Below are positions 5,028-44,717 of a stretch of DNA of 64,000 bases, in pieces. The DNA lies in contig JAMLIB010000009.1 in NCBI GenBank assembly GCA_023954415.1, positions 62,001 to 126,000 on the forward strand, given 5' to 3'. The DNA comes from Trueperaceae bacterium. GTDB lineage: Bacteria > Deinococcota > Deinococci > Deinococcales > Trueperaceae. A model generated the notes under the pieces. It was not told the DNA's origin, searched no databases, and saw nothing but the letters and a program-made list of their open reading frames with translations. Numbering within the stretch: position 1 is the stretch's first letter; the number at the start of each line of letters is the position of its first letter. The translations under genes and the position numbers were made by a program.

Positions 5028-5825
5028 ATGTACACGATCGACCTAAGCGGCAAGACGGGCCTCGTCATGGGCGTCGCCAACCAGCGCTCCTTGGCCTGGG
5101 CCATAGCGCAGCCCCTGGCCGACGCCGGCGCGCGCCTCGCGTTCAGCTACCAGTCCGACCGCCTGCGCCCTACCCTCGAGAAGCTCACCGAAGGCTTGGA
5201 CGCGCCCCTCCTGGTCGAGTGCGACGTAGGGAGCGACGAGCATATCGACGCCATGTTCGAGCGGGTCGGCCGCGAGTTCGGCAAGCTCGACTACCTCGTG
5301 CACGCGCTCGCCTACTCGCCCGCGGCCACGTTCGAGCACCCGTTCGTCGAGACGACGCGGGACGACTGGCGTACCGCCATGGACGTGAGCGCCTACTCGC
5401 TCGTCGCCACCACCAACCGCGCCGCGCGCCTAATGACCGACGGCGGGAGCGTCGTAACGCTCTCCTACCTGGCCGCGGAACGCGTCGTGCCGCACTACAA
5501 CATGATGGGCGTGGCCAAGGCCGCGCTCGAGGCGAGCGTGCGCTACCTCGCGTACGACCTGGGCCCCAAGGGCATCAGGGTCAACGCCATCAGCGCCGGC
5601 CCGATGCGCACCATCGCGGCGCGGTCCATCGCCGGCTTCGGTGACCTCTACTCGCAGGCGGGGGAGATGTCGATGCTGAAGCGCAACATCGACCACGAGG
5701 AGGTCGGCGGCCTCGGTCTCTCCCTGCTCGCCGACCGGCTGGGCGGCGGCATCACGGGCGAGACCGTGTACGTCGACGCCGGCTTCCACGCCATCGGGCT
5801 CTTCCTCCCGCATGGCAAGGAGTAG
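5028..5825 (+). CDS. fabI: Enoyl-[acyl-carrier-protein] reductase (NADH)
   Basis: FabI catalyses the last reduction in each cycle of type II fatty acid synthesis, trans-2-enoyl-ACP to acyl-ACP, in the cytoplasm. The 265-residue protein has the divergent SDR cofactor motif GVANQRSLAW near residue 15. The FabI catalytic pattern is present: Tyr147 (SYLAAER), Tyr157 and Lys164 in YNMMGVAK (Y-x6-K). The segment AISAGPMRTIAARSI matches the substrate-binding loop region. An AAGGAG Shine-Dalgarno sequence precedes ATG 5028. It lies 37 bases after the REC-SARP gene, so co-transcription and control of membrane lipid synthesis by that regulator are possible. A hairpin terminator follows. Confidence 0.96.
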   Translation: MYTIDLSGKTGLVMGVANQRSLAWAIAQPLADAGARLAFSYQSDRLRPTLEKLTEGLDAPLLVECDVGSDEHIDAMFERVGREFGKLDYLVHALAYSPAATFEHPFVETTRDDWRTAMDVSAYSLVATTNRAARLMTDGGSVVTLSYLAAERVVPHYNMMGVAKAALEASVRYLAYDLGPKGIRVNAISAGPMRTIAARSIAGFGDLYSQAGEMSMLKRNIDHEEVGGLGLSLLADRLGGGITGETVYVDAGFHAIGLFLPHGKE

Positions 5826-5829
5826 GCCC

Positions 5830-5859
5830 CAAAGCCCTCCCCACGAGGTAGGGGCTTTG
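5830..5859 (+). terminator. Hairpin terminator after fabI
   Basis: Arms CAAAGCCC (5830-5837) and GGGCTTTG (5852-5859) enclose a 14-base loop directly after the fabI stop. There is no U-tract. The right arm ends five bases before the TATACT -10 of the trp leader. Confidence 0.6.
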
Positions 5860-5863
5860 AGGC

Positions 5864-5869
5864 TATACT
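5864..5869 (+). promoter_or_regulatory. -10 element of the trp operon promoter (TATACT)
   Basis: TATACT lies seven bases before an ATG (5877) that opens a 17-codon frame. This spacing is typical of leaderless transcripts in this window, so transcription probably begins at or next to the leader-peptide start codon. Confidence 0.65.
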
Positions 5870-5876
5870 CACGCGC

Positions 5877-5930
5877 ATGATCCCACTCCACCGTCGGACG
5901 GGAACCACCTGGCGATGGCGGCGGCACTGA
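5877..5930 (+). CDS. trpL: Candidate trp operon leader peptide (17 aa, two Trp codons)
   Basis: The frame encodes MIPLHRRTGTTWRWRRH and ends in TGA at 5928. Two of the 17 codons are TGG, placed as Trp-Arg-Trp near the end, as expected of a ribosome-mediated attenuator sensor. It sits 79 bases upstream of trpE and directly after a TATACT -10 element. Downstream, CTGCCG (5933-5938) can pair either with CGGCA inside the end of the peptide frame (5922-5926, five bases) or with CGGCAG (5967-5972). That gives mutually exclusive structures that a ribosome stalled at the Trp codons could switch. No clear U-tract terminator follows, so control could act through Rho or through access to the trpE ribosome site. 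The call rests on position and Trp content. Confidence 0.55.
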   Translation: MIPLHRRTGTTWRWRRH

Positions 5931-6009
5931 ACCTGCCGTTCACCACGCGACTGCCCGAGCCCTGACCGGCAGCGCGACCACCCAGAGTCGTCCACGAACG
6001 GAGTCATCC
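5931..6009 (+). promoter_or_regulatory. trp leader RNA with alternative pairings
   Basis: The non-coding part of the leader contains CTGCCG (5933-5938), CTGCC (5951-5955) and CGGCAG (5967-5972), whose pairings compete. It ends in a GGAG ribosome-binding site (6000-6003) six bases before trpE. CGACT (5948-5952) can also pair with AGTCG (5986-5990). The stems are short, so folding needs a calculation. Confidence 0.4.
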
Positions 6010-7464
6010 ATGCACGTTGTTGAAGCGGGTGAGGGCGTGCTCGGCCATCGAGCGCCCATCGAGCCCATCTACCGCGAGGTCCTGGCCGACCTCGAGACGC
6101 CGCTGACCGCCTACCTGAAGCTGGCCGGCCACCCGTCCTTCCTCCTCGAGAGCGTGGAGCAGGGCGAGCGCGTCGCGCGCTACTCGTTCATCGGCACGGG
6201 CCAGCGGCTGCGCATAGAGGCGCGCGGCGACCAGGTCACCTTGACGCGCCCCACGGGCACCGACACCGTCACGAGCAAGGACCCCCTGCGCGTCATGTGG
6301 GACGAGGTGGTGCGCGACACGCGGCCCGCCCCCGACCTACCCGCCTTCTGGGCCGGCGCCGTCGGCTACGCGAGCTACGACCTCGTGCGTCAGTACGAGC
6401 GCCTGCCTGACGCCAACCCCGATGTCATCGGCGCGCCGGACATGCTGTTCGTCGAGCCCGAGCTGGTGGTCGTGTTCGACCACCTCAAGCGCCGGCTGTT
6501 CATCGTCGCGCCGGCCGAGGTCGGCAACGCCGCGGACGCCGCGAGGGCGTCGGCGCTGGTGGACGCCGCCTACGACCGCCTGCGCGGACCGTTGCCGGGC
6601 GTGCCTGGCGACCGCGCCGGGCGCCTGGCCGAGTTCGAGCCCAGCTTGTCGCGCAAGGAGTACATGGCGGCGGTGACGCGCGCCGTGGAGTACATCCACG
6701 CCGGCGACGTCTTCCAGGTCGTGCCGAGCGTCCGGCTGTCGGCGGACCTCGGCGCCCACCCGTTCGCCATCTACCGCGCGCTGCGCACCATCAACCCCAG
6801 CCCCTACCTCGGCTACCTCGACCTGGGGGGCGTGACGCTCGTGGCCAGCAGCCCGGAGAGCCTCGTGCGCTCGGACGGCGCGCGGGTCGAGACGCTGCCC
6901 ATCGCCGGCACGCGACCACGCGGCCGCGACGCCGCGCACGACGAGGAGCTGGCGGCCGAGCTGTTGGCCGACGAGAAGGAGCGCGCCGAGCACGTGATGC
7001 TCGTCGACCTGGGCCGCAACGACCTCGGCCGGGTCAGCGCACCGGGGAGCGTGGAGGTCGTGGACCTCATGCGCGTCGAGCGTTACAGCCACGTCATGCA
7101 CATCGTCTCCGAGGTCGTTGGGCGGCTGGCGGCCGGTCGCACGCCCCTCGACGCCCTCTCGGCCGCCTTGCCGATGGGCACCGCCTCCGGCGCCCCCAAG
7201 GTGCGCGCCATGGAGATCATCGACGAGCTCGAGACCGTGCGGCGCGGGCCGTACGCCGGCGCCTTCGGCTACTTGGCGGCCGGCGGCGCGATGGACATGG
7301 CCCTCACGCTGCGCACCATGGTCGTGAAGGACGGCCGCATCCACCTGCAGGCGGGTGCCGGCGTCGTAGCGGACTCGGACCCCGCGGCGGAGTGGCAGGA
7401 GTGCATGAACAAGCTGGCCGCGCTGAGGCGTGCCGTGGAGATGGCGACGCGGGGGCTCGGCTGA
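6010..7464 (+). CDS. trpE: Anthranilate synthase component I
   Basis: TrpE converts chorismate to anthranilate using ammonia supplied by TrpG, the first committed step of tryptophan synthesis. The 484-residue protein has the feedback-inhibition motif LLES (residues 45-48), the core IHAGDVFQVVPS, the chorismate-binding motifs LVDLGRNDLGRV and MGTASGAPKVRAMEI, and the C-terminal GAGVVADSDPAAEWQE. The LLES element suggests the enzyme itself is inhibited by Trp, in addition to the putative leader attenuator. PabB was considered, but the leader peptide and the neighbouring trpG and trpD favour TrpE. Its stop overlaps the trpG start as TGATG. Confidence 0.95.
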   Translation: MHVVEAGEGVLGHRAPIEPIYREVLADLETPLTAYLKLAGHPSFLLESVEQGERVARYSFIGTGQRLRIEARGDQVTLTRPTGTDTVTSKDPLRVMWDEVVRDTRPAPDLPAFWAGAVGYASYDLVRQYERLPDANPDVIGAPDMLFVEPELVVVFDHLKRRLFIVAPAEVGNAADAARASALVDAAYDRLRGPLPGVPGDRAGRLAEFEPSLSRKEYMAAVTRAVEYIHAGDVFQVVPSVRLSADLGAHPFAIYRALRTINPSPYLGYLDLGGVTLVASSPESLVRSDGARVETLPIAGTRPRGRDAAHDEELAAELLADEKERAEHVMLVDLGRNDLGRVSAPGSVEVVDLMRVERYSHVMHIVSEVVGRLAAGRTPLDALSAALPMGTASGAPKVRAMEIIDELETVRRGPYAGAFGYLAAGGAMDMALTLRTMVVKDGRIHLQAGAGVVADSDPAAEWQECMNKLAALRRAVEMATRGLG

Positions 7465-8066
7465 TGGCCGCTCCCAGGCTGCTGGTGGTCGACAACTACG
7501 ACTCGTTCACCTATAACCTCGTCCAGTACGTGGCCGCGTTGGGCGCCGACGTGACCGTGTGGCGCAACGACGCCTTCGCGGTGGCCGACGTCGAGGAGCT
7601 GAGCCCGGACGGCGTCATCGTCTCGCCCGGCCCCTGCACGCCGCGGGAGGCGGGGGTGTCGGTCGAGCTCGTACGCGGCCTCGGCAAGCACCTACCCATG
7701 TTGGGCGTCTGCCTTGGTCACCAGGTCATCGGCGAGGCGTACGGGGGGCGGGTCGTGCGCGCCAACCGCCTCGTGCACGGCAAGACGGCCACCATCGAGC
7801 ACGACGGGACCGGCGTGTTCGCCGGGCTGGGGAGCCCCGTCACGGCCACGCGCTACCATTCGCTGGTGGTCGTCGACCCGCCGGACGAGCTCGTTCCCAA
7901 CGCCTGGACGACCGAGCCGGGCAGCGGCGAGCGGGTGCTCATGGGGGTGCGCCACGCCACGCACCCTGTCTGGGGGGTGCAGTTCCACCCGGAGAGCATC
8001 CTCACGGAGAGCGGCTCGGCCATGCTGGCGAACTTCCTGCGCTTCACACAGGGCAGCCGCGGCTAG
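7464..8066 (+). CDS. trpG: Anthranilate synthase component II (glutamine amidotransferase)
   Basis: TrpG is the class I glutamine amidotransferase that hydrolyses glutamine and channels ammonia to TrpE. The 200-residue protein has the full catalytic triad: Cys83 in GVCLGHQ, His175 and Glu177 in WGVQFHPES. The oxyanion region VSPGPCTP is also present. The start ATG 7464 overlaps the trpE stop (TGATG), implying coupled translation and equal amounts of the two subunits. An upstream in-frame start inside trpE was rejected. Such amidotransferases can also serve PabB, so a shared role in folate synthesis cannot be excluded. Confidence 0.95.
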   Translation: MAAPRLLVVDNYDSFTYNLVQYVAALGADVTVWRNDAFAVADVEELSPDGVIVSPGPCTPREAGVSVELVRGLGKHLPMLGVCLGHQVIGEAYGGRVVRANRLVHGKTATIEHDGTGVFAGLGSPVTATRYHSLVVVDPPDELVPNAWTTEPGSGERVLMGVRHATHPVWGVQFHPESILTESGSAMLANFLRFTQGSRG

Positions 8067-8069
8067 GAC

Positions 8070-8906
8070 GTGGCCGGAGCCGCCCCAGCCGTCTCCGTCG
8101 TCGTGCCGACCCACGACCGGCGCGCCCTCCTCGAACGCAAGCTGCGCGCGCTGGAGGGGGAGGGCGTCGACTTCGAGGTGATCGTGGTCGCCGACGGTTG
8201 TAGCGACGGCACGGAACGTTTCCTAGCCCGTTACGAACCGCCCTACTGTTTCTCCTGGTTGACGACGCCAGGCAAGCACGCCGCCTTCGCCCGCAACCAG
8301 GGCGCGCGCGTGGCGCGTGGCGCCGTCCTGCTCTTCAGCGACGACGACGTGATCCCCCGCCCCGGCTGGGTGGCGGCCAACCTCGCCCTCCACAAGGCGC
8401 CCATGCGGGTCGGCCTCAGCCGGGAGGCGCTCCCGGACCACCTGAGCAAGGGGTGGACGCTCAAGGTCGTGCGCGGCTGGTGGAACGTCGTCAGCCGCTC
8501 GCTGAGCGTCCCGGCCGCGCTGTTCTGGGAGGTGGGCGGCTACGACACGAGCTTCTCCTCCTACGGCGGGGAGGATCCCGACCTCGCGCTGCGCCTCAAG
8601 GCGGCCGGCGCCGTGTTCGAGCTGCTGCCGGAGGTGCTCGTCGAGCATTGGGACGAGGGGTTCCTTGACGACCTGGAGGCCAAGGCCGGCTCGGCCGGGG
8701 CCGCGCACGTGCGCGTCTGGCGCAAGCATCCGCGGCGCGACGTCGCCCTCGCCTTGGGCGTCCACCCCCTGTCGCTCGCCCTGAAGAGGGCGCTGCTCTC
8801 CGCGGCCGCCAGGCCGTTCTGGGACGACGCCCACTACCGCTACGAGCGAGCGTACGCCGCGGCCGCGCGGCGAGCGCTCGCGGAAGGAGCTGGACCTACG
8901 CGATGA
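8070..8906 (+). CDS. Family 2 glycosyltransferase embedded in the trp operon
   Basis: This 278-residue inverting GT-A enzyme begins with VSVVVPTHDRRALLERKL and carries the nucleotide-sugar/metal motif FSDDDVIPRPGW near residue 92. The acceptor-side motif GGEDPDLALRLKAAG follows near residue 165. It has no membrane helices. The start GTG 8070 is three bases after the trpG stop, and its stop overlaps the trpD start as ATGA. It is thus translationally coupled on both sides within the trp operon, although nothing in the family suggests a role in tryptophan synthesis. The sugar donor and acceptor are unknown. The arrangement could be historical, or the enzyme may act on an anthranilate- or chorismate-derived product. 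Confidence 0.9.
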   Translation: MAGAAPAVSVVVPTHDRRALLERKLRALEGEGVDFEVIVVADGCSDGTERFLARYEPPYCFSWLTTPGKHAAFARNQGARVARGAVLLFSDDDVIPRPGWVAANLALHKAPMRVGLSREALPDHLSKGWTLKVVRGWWNVVSRSLSVPAALFWEVGGYDTSFSSYGGEDPDLALRLKAAGAVFELLPEVLVEHWDEGFLDDLEAKAGSAGAAHVRVWRKHPRRDVALALGVHPLSLALKRALLSAAARPFWDDAHYRYERAYAAAARRALAEGAGPTR

Positions 8907-9940
8907 CTGGACTTCCGATCGGCGAGCTTCTCAACCGGATCTTCGACGGCGAGACGCTGGACAGGCAGATGGCGAGGGACGTCCTCGGCCGGCTCATGGA
9001 CGGGCAGCTCTCGCAGGTGCAGGCGTCCGCCCTGCTGGCGGCCCTGCGCATGCGGGGCGAGACCGTCGAGGAGATCACGGGCTTCGCGGAGGCGATGCGC
9101 GCGAGGGCCATCAGGATCCCGGTGAACGTCGACGGTCCGCTGGTCGACACCTGCGGCACGGGCGGCACGGGCGTCGACACGATCAACATCAGCACGACGG
9201 CCATGTTCGTCGCCGCGGCCGGGGGTGCGCGGCTCGCCAAGCACGGCAACGTCGGCGTGACGCGCAAGTCGGGTTCTGCGAACGTACTGGCCGAGCTCGG
9301 CGCGGACCTGGACGCGAGCCCTGAGCGCCTCGCCGAGTCCGTCGCGGTCACCGGTATGGCGTTCATCTTCGCGCGCCGCTTCCACCCCGCCATGGGGTTC
9401 GTCGCGCCCATCCGCGCCGACCTGCAGGCTCGCACCATCTTCAACAACTTGGGGCCGCTCACCAACCCGGCCGGCGCCGACCGCCAGCTCATGGGCGTGT
9501 ACGACCCGCGCCTCACCGAGACGCTGGCGGCCGTGCTGCGCGGCCTGGGGTTGAAGCGCGCCCTCGTCGTGCATGGCGACGTCATCGACGACTTCACGGT
9601 GACGGGGCCCAGCAAGGTGACGGAGCTCGCGGAGGACGGCAGCCTGACCACCTACGTGGTCACGCCGGAGGAGGTCGGCCTCGGCCGGCACCCGCTGGCG
9701 AGCTTCGCGGGCGGCGACCCGGCGACCAACGCCAGGCACCTGCGCGCCGTGCTGGCAGGGGAGGCCGGGCCGGGCATGCGCGACGTGACGCTCTTCAACG
9801 CCGGCGCCGCCCTCTACCTCGCCGAGCGCGCCGACACGCTGGCGGAGGGCGTCGCGCTCGCGACCGAAGCGTTGGACAGCGGGGCGGCGCTCGCCAAGCT
9901 CGAGGAGTACCTGGACTTCTCGCGGCGCCCCGCGGCTTGA
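8903..9940 (+). CDS. trpD: Anthranilate phosphoribosyltransferase
   Basis: TrpD joins anthranilate to phosphoribosyl pyrophosphate in the second step of tryptophan synthesis. The 345-residue protein has the helical N-terminal domain (MARDVLGRLMDGQLSQVQAS) and the PRPP-binding loop VDTCGTGGTGVDTINIST near residue 82. KHGNVGVTRKSGSAN and the GPLTNPAG motif follow. The fourth position of the usual GTGGDG loop is Thr here, not Asp, a modest deviation. ATG 8903 overlaps the glycosyltransferase stop (ATGA); an AAGGAG lies 13 bases upstream. The rest of the pathway (trpC, F, B, A) is not in this window. Confidence 0.95.
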   Translation: MTGLPIGELLNRIFDGETLDRQMARDVLGRLMDGQLSQVQASALLAALRMRGETVEEITGFAEAMRARAIRIPVNVDGPLVDTCGTGGTGVDTINISTTAMFVAAAGGARLAKHGNVGVTRKSGSANVLAELGADLDASPERLAESVAVTGMAFIFARRFHPAMGFVAPIRADLQARTIFNNLGPLTNPAGADRQLMGVYDPRLTETLAAVLRGLGLKRALVVHGDVIDDFTVTGPSKVTELAEDGSLTTYVVTPEEVGLGRHPLASFAGGDPATNARHLRAVLAGEAGPGMRDVTLFNAGAALYLAERADTLAEGVALATEALDSGAALAKLEEYLDFSRRPAA

Positions 9941-39565: not shown

Positions 39566-42523
39566 TTACTTGAGGTTGCGCGCCAGTAACTCCACGGGGT
39601 GACTCGCCGTCTTGCCCGTCCCGTCACTGACCTGATGCCGACACGAGAAGCCCGGTGCCGCCGTCTCGCCTTCGAACTCGCGCACGGCGGGGAAGAGGCG
39701 CTGCTCGCCGATGGTCATGCTCAGGTCGTGGTGCGAGTAGCCGAACGAGCCTGCCATGCCGCAGCAGCCGGCGTCGAGCACGCGCACGTCGTCGCTGATC
39801 CACCCCAGTAGCGCCTTCGTGGCGCTGGCGCTGGCGGGCAGCACGGCCTTCTGCTGGCAGTGGCCGTGGAACTGCACGGCGCCGGCGCCCTTCCGGAACA
39901 CGTCGGCCGGCTTGAAGCGGCCGCTCGTCCACTCTTTGGCGAGGAACTCCTCCAGCATCCGCACGTTGCCCGCCACGGCGAGCGTCTCCTCGCCGGGGAC
40001 CAGGTCGGGGTAGTCGTCCGTGAACGCCGCCACGCAGCTCGGCTCGAGGCCGACCACCGGCACGCCGCGCGCGACGTACTCGTGCAGCGCCGCCACGTTG
40101 CTCCGCGCCATGCGCTGCGCCTCGCGCGCCAGCCCCTTGCTGATCTGCGGCCGGCCGCAACAGCCGTACGGCACGAGCTCGACGTCGTAGCCGATGCGCT
40201 CCAGCACGGCCACGGCGGCCTGGCCGACCTCGGGCTGGTTGAACATCGTCCAGGTGTCGGCGAAGAGCGCCACCTTGCCGAGCGTGCCCGGGGTGGGCCG
40301 AGTGCGGCGGCGGAACCAGGCGTCGAAGCGCCGCGGGGCGTAGCTGGGTAGTACGCGGCGCTCGTCCACCCCGACGGTCTTCTCCAGGAGCCAGCGCACT
40401 GGCTTGAGCGGCAGGAAGAAGTTGGCGACGGGCGCGAGCGCCTGGGCCAGCGGCGCCACCCGCCCGACGTTGCCCATGGCTCGCGCGGCCAGCGGCGTGC
40501 CCTTGACGTCGTAGTAGTGCTGCAGCCACTCGTACTTGAGCTTGGCCATGTCCACGCGGCTGGGGCACTCGGACTTGCACGCCTTGCATTCGAGGCAGAG
40601 GTCGAGGACCTGGTAGACGTCGTCGCTCGTCGGTCCGCCCGGCAGGCCGCCGGTGAGCGCCTCGCGGAGCACGTTCGCGCGTCCGCGTGTGGAGTTGTCC
40701 TCGTCGCGCGTGCCCATGTAGGACGGGCACATCGTCCCGACGCCGACCTTGCGGCACGCGCCGACGCCCGTGCACGCCTCGACGGCGCCGAGGAAGCCGC
40801 CCTGCTCGGAGAAATCGAACACGGTCGGCAGCTCGACGGCCGGGTAGTCGGTCCCGTACCGGAGGCTCTCCGTCATCGCGGGCGCCTCGACGATCTTCCC
40901 GGGGTTCATTAGCCAGTCCGGGTCGAAGGCGCGCTTCACCCCGATGAACGCCTCGTACAGCCTGTCGCCGAACAGGCGGCGGTTCTGATACGAGCGGATG
41001 AGGCCGTCGCCGTGCTCGCCGCTCCATGAGCCGCCGTACTTCACCACGAGGTCGAAGACCTCCTCGCTGATGGCCTGGAACCTCGTTATGCCCGCCTCGT
41101 CCTTGAGGTCGAGCAGCGGTCGCACGTGGATGACGCCGACGGACGCGTGCGCGTAGAACACGGCCCTGGTGCCGTGGCGCTCGCACACCGCGATGACCTC
41201 GGGGATGTACTTGGCGAGGTGCTCGACGGGGATGGCGGCGTCCTCGATGAACGGCGTCGGCTTGGCGGCGCCGGGCATCGTGGCGTAGATCCCGAGGCCG
41301 TCGCGCCGGAAGTCGGAGATCTCCTTCTGCTGCTTCGGGTCCTCGGCCAGGTAGGCGGCGTACGCCAGCGCGGCCACGTCAGGGTCGGCCTCCAGGCGCG
41401 CGAGGGCGCGGCGGCACTCTGCCAGGTCCTCGCCGTCGAACTCGACGAGGAGGACGGCCTCGGGGTCGTCCACCACCCAACCCATCATCGGGGCCATGGC
41501 CGGGTTCTCGCGCCCGAGCACGATGAGGTCGCGGTCGATGATCTCGACGGCCGAGGGGCCGTGCCTGTTCACGAACTTCACCGCCTCGAACGCGGCCGTG
41601 AGGGTGCGGAAGTGGAGCATGGTCACGACGCGGCGCCTCGGTACAGGGTGCAGCGCCAGCTTGAGCTCGAGGATGAGCGCCAGCGTGCCCTCGCTGCCCG
41701 ATACGAGCTTGGCGAGGTTGAACGGGCGCTGGCCCGCCGCTCCCGCGTGCGTCAGCTCGTCGAGGTTGTAGCCGCCGACGCGGCGCATGACCTTCGGGTA
41801 GCGCTCCGCGATCTCGTCGGCGTTCTCGGCGACCAGCGCATGGACGGCCCGGTAGAGCTCGCCTTCCCGGCCTGGCGCCGTCAACTTGGCCGTGAGGTCG
41901 GACCCCGTCAGCGGCTTCAGCTCCAACTCCGTGCCGTCGACGAGCAGGACCCGGGCCTCCATGACCTGATCGACGCTCTTGCCGTACTTGATGGAGCGGG
42001 TGCCGGCCGAGTTGTTCGCGACCATGCCGCCCACGTTGGCCCTGTCGGTCGTGGCGACGTCCGGGGTGAACTGCAGCGCGTGCTCGGCGAGCTTGGCGTT
42101 GAGCTGATCGCGAACGAGCCCGGGCTGCACCCTGACCCACCGCTCCTGCACGTTCAACTCGAGGAGCGCCGTCAGGTGCTTGGACATGTCGATGACGAGG
42201 GCGGCCGCCACCGTCTGACCGGCCAGGCTCGTGCCGCCGCCCCGAGGTAGGACGGGGACCTTGAGCTCGTGCGCGACGCGCACCGCGGCCCTGACGTCGT
42301 CCTCGTCGAGCGGGACCACGACCCCAACGGGGGAGATGCGGTACGGGCTGGCGTCGGTGGCGTACAGCGCCCGCGCGAGGGCGTCGAAGCGCACCTCGCC
42401 CTTGACGACGGCTCTAAGGCGCCGCGCGAGCTCGGCGTTCGGGCTCGCGGGCTCCGGCGGCGCCAAGGGTTCGCGGAGGCGCCCGTCAGTGGCTTCCGGT
42501 GCTCTCCACGGGCTGCTCGACAT
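39566..42523 (-). CDS. FAD-linked oxidase with iron-sulfur domain (YdiJ-like D-2-hydroxyacid dehydrogenase)
   Basis: This 985-residue protein fuses a GlcD-type FAD-binding oxidase to a GlpC-like iron-sulfur module, as in E. coli YdiJ, a D-2-hydroxyglutarate dehydrogenase of similar length. The FAD-binding loop LPRGGGTSLAGQTV is near residue 80. ACTGVGACRKVGVGTMCPSY and CLECKACKSECPSRVD bind 4Fe-4S clusters. Two CCG-type motifs, PYGCCGRPQISKG and DAGCCGMAGSFGY, occur near the end. D-lactate is an alternative substrate. Start ATG 42523 lies inside the 3' end of recJ and is six bases after TATACT (42530-42535), so the gene probably has its own leaderless promoter in addition to read-through. Confidence 0.9.
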   Translation of the reverse strand: MSSSPWRAPEATDGRLREPLAPPEPASPNAELARRLRAVVKGEVRFDALARALYATDASPYRISPVGVVVPLDEDDVRAAVRVAHELKVPVLPRGGGTSLAGQTVAAALVIDMSKHLTALLELNVQERWVRVQPGLVRDQLNAKLAEHALQFTPDVATTDRANVGGMVANNSAGTRSIKYGKSVDQVMEARVLLVDGTELELKPLTGSDLTAKLTAPGREGELYRAVHALVAENADEIAERYPKVMRRVGGYNLDELTHAGAAGQRPFNLAKLVSGSEGTLALILELKLALHPVPRRRVVTMLHFRTLTAAFEAVKFVNRHGPSAVEIIDRDLIVLGRENPAMAPMMGWVVDDPEAVLLVEFDGEDLAECRRALARLEADPDVAALAYAAYLAEDPKQQKEISDFRRDGLGIYATMPGAAKPTPFIEDAAIPVEHLAKYIPEVIAVCERHGTRAVFYAHASVGVIHVRPLLDLKDEAGITRFQAISEEVFDLVVKYGGSWSGEHGDGLIRSYQNRRLFGDRLYEAFIGVKRAFDPDWLMNPGKIVEAPAMTESLRYGTDYPAVELPTVFDFSEQGGFLGAVEACTGVGACRKVGVGTMCPSYMGTRDEDNSTRGRANVLREALTGGLPGGPTSDDVYQVLDLCLECKACKSECPSRVDMAKLKYEWLQHYYDVKGTPLAARAMGNVGRVAPLAQALAPVANFFLPLKPVRWLLEKTVGVDERRVLPSYAPRRFDAWFRRRTRPTPGTLGKVALFADTWTMFNQPEVGQAAVAVLERIGYDVELVPYGCCGRPQISKGLAREAQRMARSNVAALHEYVARGVPVVGLEPSCVAAFTDDYPDLVPGEETLAVAGNVRMLEEFLAKEWTSGRFKPADVFRKGAGAVQFHGHCQQKAVLPASASATKALLGWISDDVRVLDAGCCGMAGSFGYSHHDLSMTIGEQRLFPAVREFEGETAAPGFSCRHQVSDGTGKTASHPVELLARNLK

Positions 42524-44717
42524 CGGGCAAGTATATGTCGCTCGCCGGCGCGGCCTCGGGGCCGAACAGGCGCGCGAGAGTAAACGCGAACCCCCCGTCA
42601 TCGAGATGCCGGTAGGCGTGCACGAACGTGCGTAGCCGGTACCTGCGCACCAGGCCGTCCATGAGGCTCGCCGATTCGTACGGCGACACGCGCGTGCCCG
42701 GGGCAAGGCGGACCGCGCGCCCGTGGTCGTCGAGCAGTCCGAGCTCGTCGAGGGCCGTCCTGATGCGCCCCGCCTTCGGCTCCAGGAAGGGGAGGGCGGC
42801 CCCGCGCTTGAGCGCGCTCAAGCCGCGTCTCAACTCGGCGACGGTCGGGTACTCCTTGGCTGTACGTTCCAGGGCGTGCAGGGCGTCGGGCGTGAGGGCC
42901 ATGACGACCTCGCCGCCGCCACGCGCCGCGCTCTCCAGCGTGGCGACCGGATCGGGACCGACATCGGTGAGGACGTAAGAGCCGGCGGCGTGGACGCCCT
43001 TCACCGGTAACCGTCGCACGTCGGGCGCCCGAGTGGCCGTATCCGGCGGCTCTTCCTCGGCTACCGCAAGGGGCAGGGGGGCCGCGGCGCGTACGGCGGT
43101 GGCCCGGAACTCGAGGGTCCGCTTGTCGCGGAACTCGCTCTCCTCCAGCGTCACCGCCGCGTTGACCAGTCCGCCTACCGGCAGGCTCTCTGCCAGGTCG
43201 CCCATGCGCCAGCCGACCCCCCTCACCCCGCCGATCCTGAGCTGCAGCGTGTTCCCGTCCTTACCGACCGCACGCGCGGCCTCCAGGCCGTCGGACAACG
43301 CGAAGAGGGGCGCGGGGTGACCCTCGCCGAACGGCTCGAGTTCCTGCACCGAGCGCCAGAGGCCGCCCTCGATCTCCTCGCCGCAGAGGATGGCGTCCGT
43401 CACGACCTCGGGCACGGGCCGGGGGAAGACCCGCGCGTAGGCGTAGATGGCCGTCTGGAACGCCCCGAAGTTCGCCATGTCGAGCGCGAAGCCCGCCGCC
43501 TGCCTGTGCCCCCCGTACCTGAGGAGGTGCGCGGAGGCGGCGCGGAGCCCCGCCACGGCGGAGATGCCAGGGGTGGAGCGCACGCTGCCCTTGCCGGCCG
43601 CGGCTATGTAGACGGGCAGGTAGTAGCGCTCGAGCAGCTTGCTTGCGACGATGCCCATCACACCCGGGTGCCAGCCCGGGTCCTCCAGGACCAGGGCCGG
43701 CGCTTCCGGGTCGGCCTTGCCCAAGGCTTCCTCGAACATGGCGTCCTGGATGCGGCGGCGCTCGCCGTTGCGAGCGTCCAGGTAGGTGGCGAGCTCCGCG
43801 GCGCGGCGCTCTGAGGCGGTGGTGAGGAGCTCCAACCCCGCGTCGGCCTCACCCAGCCGGCCGGCGGCGTTGAGGCGTGGCGCGAGGACGAAGGCGACCT
43901 CGCGGGCGCTCACGGGCTCGGAGAGCTTCGCCAGCGCGACGCTCGCGCGGATGCCAGGCCAGCGCGAATCCGCCATGCGCGCGAGCCCTTCCTTGATCAG
44001 CGCCCGGTTCTGGCCGAGGAGGGGTGCTACGTCCGCGATCGTGCCGAGCGTGGCGAGGTCGGCGTACTCGAGGGGAGGGTCGAGGCCGAGCAGGTCGCGC
44101 ACGGCCCAGAGGAGGTGGAAGGCGACGCCGGCGCCGGTCAGCTCCGGCAACCCGTGACCGGCCGCGGGTGAGAGGCCGGGGTGGACGACGAGGCAGTCGG
44201 GCAGGGCGCTGCCGGGCGTGTGGTGGTCGGTGACGATCACTTCGACGCCGGCCGCCTGCAGGCCGGCGATCTCGGCCAGGTTGGTGACGCCGCAGTCCAC
44301 CGTGATGAAGAGGTCGGCCCGCTCGGCGTGCTCCGGCACCCTGTCCGGGTGGATGCCGTAGCCGTCCGTGAGGCGGTCGGGGATGAAGGCCGCCGCCGCC
44401 GCGCCGAGCTCGCGCAGGCCGAGGAGCAGCGTCGCCGTGCCACTGATGCCGTCGGCGTCGTAGTCGCCATGGATCAGGATGCGCTCGCCAGCGCGGACGG
44501 CTCGGGCCAGGCGCTCAGCCGCCAGCGGGAGCGTCGGGTTGGGGCTCAGGACCAGCTTGGGGTCGAGATGGTCAGGGGCGGCGTCTCGCAGGCCGCGCGA
44601 CCAGAGGACGGCGGCGAGCGCAGGCGGCACCTGCAGGGCGCGGCTCAGCGCCGCGACGGCGCTAGGCGGTGCGGGTGGCCTTACGGACCAGCGCACCGCT
44701 GGGACGCCGGAGCGCAT
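42486..44717 (-). CDS. recJ: Single-stranded-DNA-specific exonuclease RecJ
   Basis: RecJ degrades single-stranded DNA 5'-3' in RecF-pathway recombination and mismatch repair. The 743-residue DHH-family protein has motif I ILIHGDYDADGISG near residue 81, the VDCGVTN motif, DHH in VIVTDHHTPG, and LAPRLNAAGRLGEAD. The DHHA1 domain signature is HLLRYGGHRQAAGFAL. An OB-like domain and a C-terminal extension of about 170 residues follow, as in Deinococcus RecJ. ATG 44717 overlaps the LapA-like stop as TGATG, so the two are translated together. Confidence 0.94.
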   Translation of the reverse strand: MRSGVPAVRWSVRPPAPPSAVAALSRALQVPPALAAVLWSRGLRDAAPDHLDPKLVLSPNPTLPLAAERLARAVRAGERILIHGDYDADGISGTATLLLGLRELGAAAAAFIPDRLTDGYGIHPDRVPEHAERADLFITVDCGVTNLAEIAGLQAAGVEVIVTDHHTPGSALPDCLVVHPGLSPAAGHGLPELTGAGVAFHLLWAVRDLLGLDPPLEYADLATLGTIADVAPLLGQNRALIKEGLARMADSRWPGIRASVALAKLSEPVSAREVAFVLAPRLNAAGRLGEADAGLELLTTASERRAAELATYLDARNGERRRIQDAMFEEALGKADPEAPALVLEDPGWHPGVMGIVASKLLERYYLPVYIAAAGKGSVRSTPGISAVAGLRAASAHLLRYGGHRQAAGFALDMANFGAFQTAIYAYARVFPRPVPEVVTDAILCGEEIEGGLWRSVQELEPFGEGHPAPLFALSDGLEAARAVGKDGNTLQLRIGGVRGVGWRMGDLAESLPVGGLVNAAVTLEESEFRDKRTLEFRATAVRAAAPLPLAVAEEEPPDTATRAPDVRRLPVKGVHAAGSYVLTDVGPDPVATLESAARGGGEVVMALTPDALHALERTAKEYPTVAELRRGLSALKRGAALPFLEPKAGRIRTALDELGLLDDHGRAVRLAPGTRVSPYESASLMDGLVRRYRLRTFVHAYRHLDDGGFAFTLARLFGPEAAPASDIYLPDVEQPVESTGSH

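Follow-up and report, generated by a model that had tools for sequence, protein, structure and literature searches.

The window, by which we mean the whole 64,000-nucleotide stretch of Trueperaceae DNA analysed here, contains the gene trpE, and 79 nt upstream of it ends a short open reading frame of 17 codons, whose translation in the window is MIPLHRRTGTTWRWRRH*. The genes that flank this leader, the candidate promoter and the predicted RNA features are collected in Table 1. An earlier note on this DNA had described a TATACT element followed after seven bases by a 17-codon frame with Trp-Arg-Trp near its end, and the sequence agrees with that description. The pattern TATANT-N4-9-ATG-N12-42-CGATGGCG has one match in the entire 3.2-Mb genome, and this match is the leader site of the window. 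Genes for TRAP (TrpBP) and TrpR were not found in the genome, which is about 96 percent complete, in searches run with positive controls, and covariance models of the Rfam riboswitch, T-box and leader families gave zero matches for the window element. Downstream of the fabI stop and ahead of the trp promoter there is also an inverted repeat (CAAAGCCC...GGGCTTTG, window positions 5830-5859), which is not conserved in the close relative L003.

Table 1. Genes, promoter, leader and predicted RNA features at the trpE locus of the window.
Feature	Position	Strand	Basis or remark
FabI-like reductase	5028-5825		Upstream of the leader; NCBIfam
-10 element TATACT of the proposed leaderless promoter	5864..5869	+	Sequence and relatives
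Leader ORF, proposed trpL	5877..5930	+	ATG 5877-5879, TGA 5928-5930; homologous leaders in relatives
P1 left arm	5879..5900 (5879-5881, 5885-5889, 5892-5894, 5896-5900)	+	Inside the first eight leader codons; pair probabilities, covariation
Trp codons of the leader	5910-5912 (codon 12), 5916-5918 (codon 14)	+	
Core CGATGGC (Arg CGA, Trp TGG)	5913..5919	+	Near-invariant in Trueperaceae leaders
Hairpin A, leader end with 5933-5938	5919..5938	+	P ~0.5 for the window and above this for L002 and L003; competes with other pairings
Hairpin B, CGCG-CUGCC / GGCAG-CGCG	5946..5976	+	Lies within P1 and lacks a T-tract; most pairs have P 0.75-1.0
P1 right arm	5989..6008 (5989-5993, 5994-5996, 6000-6004, 6006-6008)	+	Pair probabilities; predicted pairs 5885-5889:6000-6004, 5892-5894:5994-5996, 5896-5900:5989-5993, 5879-5881:6006-6008
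trpE Shine-Dalgarno GGAG	6000-6003	+	Inside the P1 right arm
trpE, anthranilate synthase component I, proposed controlled gene	6010..7464	+	TIGR00564 above cut-off
trpG-type amidotransferase	7464-8066		Downstream of trpE; NCBIfam
Glycosyltransferase	8070-8906		Between trpG and trpD, same direction; NCBIfam
trpD	8903-9940		NCBIfam

Leaderless genes are common in Deinococcus-Thermus, where leaderless ORFs are preceded by a TANNNT motif approximately 6-7 bp upstream (PMC12340547), and the TATACT of the window, separated from the leader ATG by the 7 nt CACGCGC, matches this criterion for Deinococcota. Of 19 Trueperaceae leaders, 16 have the same hexamer 6-8 nt 5' of their ATG, and in the Thermus group a TANNNT motif is found 6 nt 5' of the leader ATG. 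No sigma-70 -35/-10 pair scores upstream of the leader, as is expected of a leaderless promoter that consists of a -10 element only. From the -10 spacing, we infer that transcription starts at the leader AUG or within a base or two of it. For the genus g25 (Meiothermus-like, the name being a guess), the -10 filter often failed or chose an upstream TTG, and leaderlessness is therefore not claimed there. Judged from sequence, a leaderless trp leader is the rule in the sampled Deinococcota. The comparison with relatives thus lends good support to the leaderless Trp leader peptide proposed in the earlier note and overturns its view that a leaderless version would be unusual for Deinococcota: among the sampled members of the phylum this is how trp is normally arranged, in line with the frequency of leaderless genes there, and a leaderless trpL also exists in Sinorhizobium meliloti (PMC7298713). 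The arrangement TATACT-N5-8-ATG occurs twice in the 64 kb, against an expectation of 0.05; the second occurrence, a TATACT-N6-ATG at 42521-42535 on the minus strand, is possibly another leaderless start.

The region before trpE was compared from approximately 90 Deinococcota genomes, within a phylum sample of 111 genomes in five families; owing to this sample, none of the loci was recognised as belonging to Deinococcaceae. In most of the sampled Deinococcota, including most Trueperaceae genera and the sister families, trpE is preceded by a short Trp-codon ORF. The usual form of the Trueperaceae leader is M-x4-S-W-T-G-(A/V)-L-G-R-W-R, and the Thermus-like leaders have about 11 codons and end in W-W-P-G-stop. 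The window shares with its two nearest relatives a CGG (Arg) at codon 7, a position that is TGG in other relatives, and a new Trp codon, TGG, at codon 12, so that the total of two Trp codons is preserved. By this comparison, Trp at codon 7 is the ancestral state, which the window clade changed to Arg. Besides some of the known leaders, a scan with a triple-TGG pattern returned a few further sites and the start of one long, membrane-like ORF. Taken together, these features make it very probable that a tryptophan-responsive leader peptide is encoded upstream of trpE.

The leader is absent from the Trueperaceae loci L012, L013, L015, L017, L022-L024, L029, and L031, and in L014 (genome G008) the TATACT and the ATG are retained but both Trp codons are lost (MCSRSFCTGFLHS*), an apparent decay. 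Three loci of one genus, L026, L028, and L030, have no TATACT; their leader starts on the fabI stop (GTGA or ATGA) and reads ERWRRG, and because of this overlap it is perhaps translated by coupling and not as a leaderless ORF. In L180 (G014:C484:3600-4600), the leader, MNIFSKTRLWLGRWRSLRLSNNSIYL*, precedes trpD, not trpE. Such losses and variants agree with a real element. According to the earlier note, homologous regions lacking the short frame or its Trp codons would speak against the proposal; the relatives as a whole do not show this pattern, although some genera show loss or decay. These same genera without the ORF, together with the decayed L014, could be taken to mean that the short ORF is there by chance behind a leaderless promoter whose true product is trpE, with no regulation involved. 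However, the frame, its Trp codons and the peptide are conserved, and the leader of L026, L028, and L030 has persisted despite the change of promoter and now overlaps the fabI stop, so that we regard a chance ORF as the least credible of the explanations considered. At L031 (genome G009), trpE itself seems to begin 7 nt after a TATGCT, as a leaderless trpE, and a second TrpE-like gene is present in this genome.

The leaders of the phylum differ in what follows them. An intrinsic terminator, consisting of a hairpin and a T-tract, was found at 57 of 61 loci of the sister (Thermus-like) families and at none of the 19 Trueperaceae loci with a leader. In the Thermus-like families, the leader and the terminator together are, by their sequence features, classical attenuation. 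The scan of the pre-trpE region of the window detected neither a U-tract, which the earlier note had also reported missing, nor any terminator-like site. Since a terminator was tested for and not found, the Trueperaceae element is not called a classical transcription attenuator here. Attenuation by a terminator hairpin that functions without a U-tract would have a precedent of sorts in the leader plus terminator of the sister families, and the window has two CUGCC copies able to pair with CGGCAG. These alternative CUGCC/CGGCAG pairings are indeed present, yet none of them leads to a terminator, and with no terminator-like site in the window or at any of the 19 Trueperaceae leader loci this explanation is highly unlikely.

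A different, long-range pairing is predicted in the window, between the first eight leader codons and the region of the trpE Shine-Dalgarno sequence (P1; Table 1). Its pair probabilities are 0.91-0.99 for positions 5885-5899, 0.77 for 5900, and 0.52-0.59 for 5879-5881. Compared with the window, the pair 5881:6006 is changed from U-A to C-G in L003, and in L002 a different register is predicted to be preferred, in which the Shine-Dalgarno sequence is still covered. The pairings that the earlier note had pointed out do exist, as TGCCG (within 5933-5938) with CGGCA at 5922-5926 and as CTGCCG at 5933-5938 with CGGCAG at 5967-5972, but they are not supported as the main switch, and P1 is the better supported element; positions 5968-5972 are predicted to pair mainly with the second CUGCC at 5951-5955 (P 0.75-1.0). 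The total fold energy of the window RNA is like that of shuffled RNA (z 0.03). A MAFFT alignment of 14 Trueperaceae transcripts analysed with RNAalifold gave no consensus structure, since the arms do not keep a common register and the sequence between them cannot be aligned; for this reason the arms were instead tested by swapping, by shuffling and against genome windows.

For most Trueperaceae transcripts, the minimum-energy fold is predicted to contain P1, which joins leader codons ~2 to 8 with the trpE Shine-Dalgarno region. When arms were swapped among 13 species, the true complementarity total was reached in 0 of 100,000 permutations, and with one species per genus in 2 of 200,000. Because the genomes differ in G+C, the swap was repeated within high-GC sets, where the true total was reached in 980 of 362,880 permutations for nine species and in 3 of 720 for six genera. 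Comparison with genome-matched windows, that is, real windows of the same loci, yielded combined p values of 5e-4 and 3e-8, and dinucleotide shuffles a combined p of 2e-7; because the same sequences and the same decisions on arm limits recur in them, these P1 tests are not independent of one another. In the terminator-bearing families, the shuffles gave no P1 signal for the group, with L096 individually strong. The P1 of the window is not significant on its own (p 0.09 by shuffles and 0.19-0.23 by genome windows); among the relatives, P1 was not found in L020 and L180, did not surpass the shuffles in L025, and is weak in L008 and in L021. A predicted pairing of leader codons with the trpE Shine-Dalgarno sequence, conserved by covariation, is thus supported for the family, and for the window alone the signal is weak. 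The covariation of the arms also backs the suggestion, made in the earlier note on account of the missing U-tract, that the switch may act via the trpE ribosome site.

On balance, we favor a Trp-responsive leader peptide as the regulator of trpE(G), one that would act on the translation of trpE, possibly with the participation of Rho. This model starts from what is seen directly, namely the ORF and its conservation, its Trp codons, the -10 spacing, the lack of an intrinsic terminator and the covariation of the P1 arms; ribosome stalling, the direction of the response and a translational output in vivo are the parts that the model would add. A leader mRNA that starts at or near the AUG would carry the first codons at its 5' end. 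When Trp-tRNA is plentiful, ribosomes would finish the 17 codons and depart, and the first eight codons would form P1 with the trpE Shine-Dalgarno sequence, resulting in low translation of trpE and perhaps in Rho-dependent polarity thereafter. When Trp-tRNA is scarce, a ribosome would stall at the Trp codons, on or just 3' of the left arm of P1, and, helped by another ribosome waiting behind it on the AUG at the 5' end, it would block P1, thus allowing trpE to be translated. Since ribosomes on a leaderless ORF begin at nucleotide 1 of the mRNA, its extreme 5' end could serve as the anti-Shine-Dalgarno strand.

The effect of stalling was calculated with the ribosome represented as an unpaired block and with co-transcriptional folding ignored. 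In the relatives, a ribosome at codon 6/7 covers the left arm of P1. The calculation took in 11 relatives with Trp in this position and excluded L025 because of the different build of its leader. A stall there is predicted to make the Shine-Dalgarno core more accessible in 10 of the 11, and in 9 of them, all but L005 and L020, opening the ribosome site would cost 2-11 kcal/mol less. A stall at codon 14 alone usually has a smaller effect. For the window, the predicted opening cost of 8.6 kcal/mol becomes 7.9 with a single ribosome stalled at Trp12 and is 8.6 with one at Trp14; with an additional ribosome waiting at the AUG, it is 7.3 (Trp12) or 5.2 (Trp14) kcal/mol. As a single ribosome barely changes the opening in the window, the model requires a queue or kinetic effects for this genome.

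The same leader peptide could instead have Rho-dependent termination as its output: the C-rich, rut-like RNA that separates the leader stop from trpE would be exposed to a different degree when translation stalls or is slow. The genome has a rho gene, the 67-nt stretch 3' of the leader is rich in C and poor in G (C 0.45, G 0.25), and an intrinsic terminator is missing; the presence of rho and the C-rich intervening stretch make Rho-dependent termination a serious rival or partner of translational control. However, it would leave the covariation between the leader arm and the Shine-Dalgarno arm unexplained, the excess of C over G is absent or weak in L016, L018, and L020, and Rho polarity may merely follow from an untranslated trpE. 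We therefore consider Rho-dependent termination as the output itself to be possible, though rather unlikely. With translational control as the preferred reading, one trpE leader-peptide regulator would have two outputs in a single phylum, intrinsic termination in the Thermus-like families and terminator-less pairing with the Shine-Dalgarno sequence in Trueperaceae, and this would open the change of output to direct study.

The Trueperaceae leaders conserve more than their Trp codons. CGATGG is present in every Trueperaceae leader listed and missing from the decayed L014, and it is followed by CG in all Trueperaceae leaders except L006. CGA accounts for ~0-14 percent of the Arg codons in the same trpE genes, and under this codon usage an invariant CGA before the last Trp would have a chance of ~1e-17 (one species per genus, 12 genera), a value that is inflated by common descent. 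In the codons for Thr-Gly-x-Leu-Gly between the two Trp codons, pS is 0.73 and pN is 0.07 (10 species), and this stretch uses all six codons for Leu and all four for Thr. The peptide WTG(A/V)LGRWR thus keeps its amino acids while synonymous change is saturated in the homologues L004-L008, L010, L016, L018, L020, and L027. These patterns suggest selection on the peptide, plus on the codon or the RNA at CGAUGGC, that exceeds what a codon counter would need. The AUG GC that lies out of frame within CGAUGGC might have been a second start, but this idea was dropped, as the frames that follow it in the sequences compared are, by eye, very unequal in length.

Conservation at the amino acid level despite synonymous change, along with the invariant CGA, is what might be expected of a nascent-chain sensor, in which WTG(A/V)LGRWR and the fixed CGA would arrest the ribosome upon a signal such as free Trp or Trp-tRNA, as happens with TnaC, and not through simple codon starvation. 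Against this, the window clade has lost most of the peptide and reads TGTTWRWR, the leader peptides of L009, L011, and L180 also diverge, and the relatedness of the genomes inflates the codon statistic; a sensor of this kind appears improbable. Slightly less so, but still doubtful, is the proposition that the phylum-wide leaderless trp attenuator exists in Trueperaceae as a terminator-less translational switch whose selected peptide, with its obligatory CGA, acts as a nascent-chain sensor of Trp.

In the translational attenuators of erm and cat genes, a stalled leader ribosome releases a sequestered Shine-Dalgarno sequence. Those leaders respond to a drug and have a Shine-Dalgarno sequence of their own, whereas the Trueperaceae leader is leaderless and its proposed signal is an amino acid. 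Like the ribosome-mediated trp attenuators (trpL) of Proteobacteria and Actinobacteria, the Trueperaceae element has a short ORF containing Trp codons immediately 5' of trpE; it differs from them in being leaderless and without an intrinsic terminator, and most Trueperaceae conserve more of the peptide than its Trp codons. The Thermus-like trp leaders (L032-L053, L057, L060-L096, and L099) have the same place, Trp codons and mostly the same spacing from the -10 element to the ATG, but they end in WW(W)PG-stop or similar and are followed by a CCCCGGGG-type terminator with a T-tract, which the Trueperaceae leaders lack. The trpEG genes of Thermus thermophilus were reportedly cloned in 1988; in the open-licence literature, our searches turned up no account of a trp leader from Thermus or Trueperaceae. 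The Trueperaceae element appears to join features that are known, a Trp-codon leader, a leaderless trpL and the pairing of leader codons with a Shine-Dalgarno sequence, in a combination for which we likewise found no description in that literature. For the last of these features, a close counterpart is the LEU element of actinobacterial leuA, in which leader codons were proposed to pair with the Shine-Dalgarno sequence of the first gene (PMC1262725). That element belongs to another phylum, concerns leucine, involves a pseudoknot and is not described as leaderless (PMC1262725), and in place of its run of Leu codons before leuA there are Trp codons before trpE. In S. meliloti, the trp leader RNA likewise has its 5' end at the trpL AUG, but it functions in transcription attenuation that yields the small RNA rnTrpL, and the available part of that report describes no comparable pairing with a Shine-Dalgarno sequence (PMC7298713). 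The mycobacterial polycysteine attenuators (Canestrari et al. 2020, cited in PMC9031893) are also leaderless short ORFs, rich in the regulatory codon, that reportedly control the operon behind them; they differ from the Trueperaceae Trp leader in that they concern cysteine and occur in Actinobacteria.
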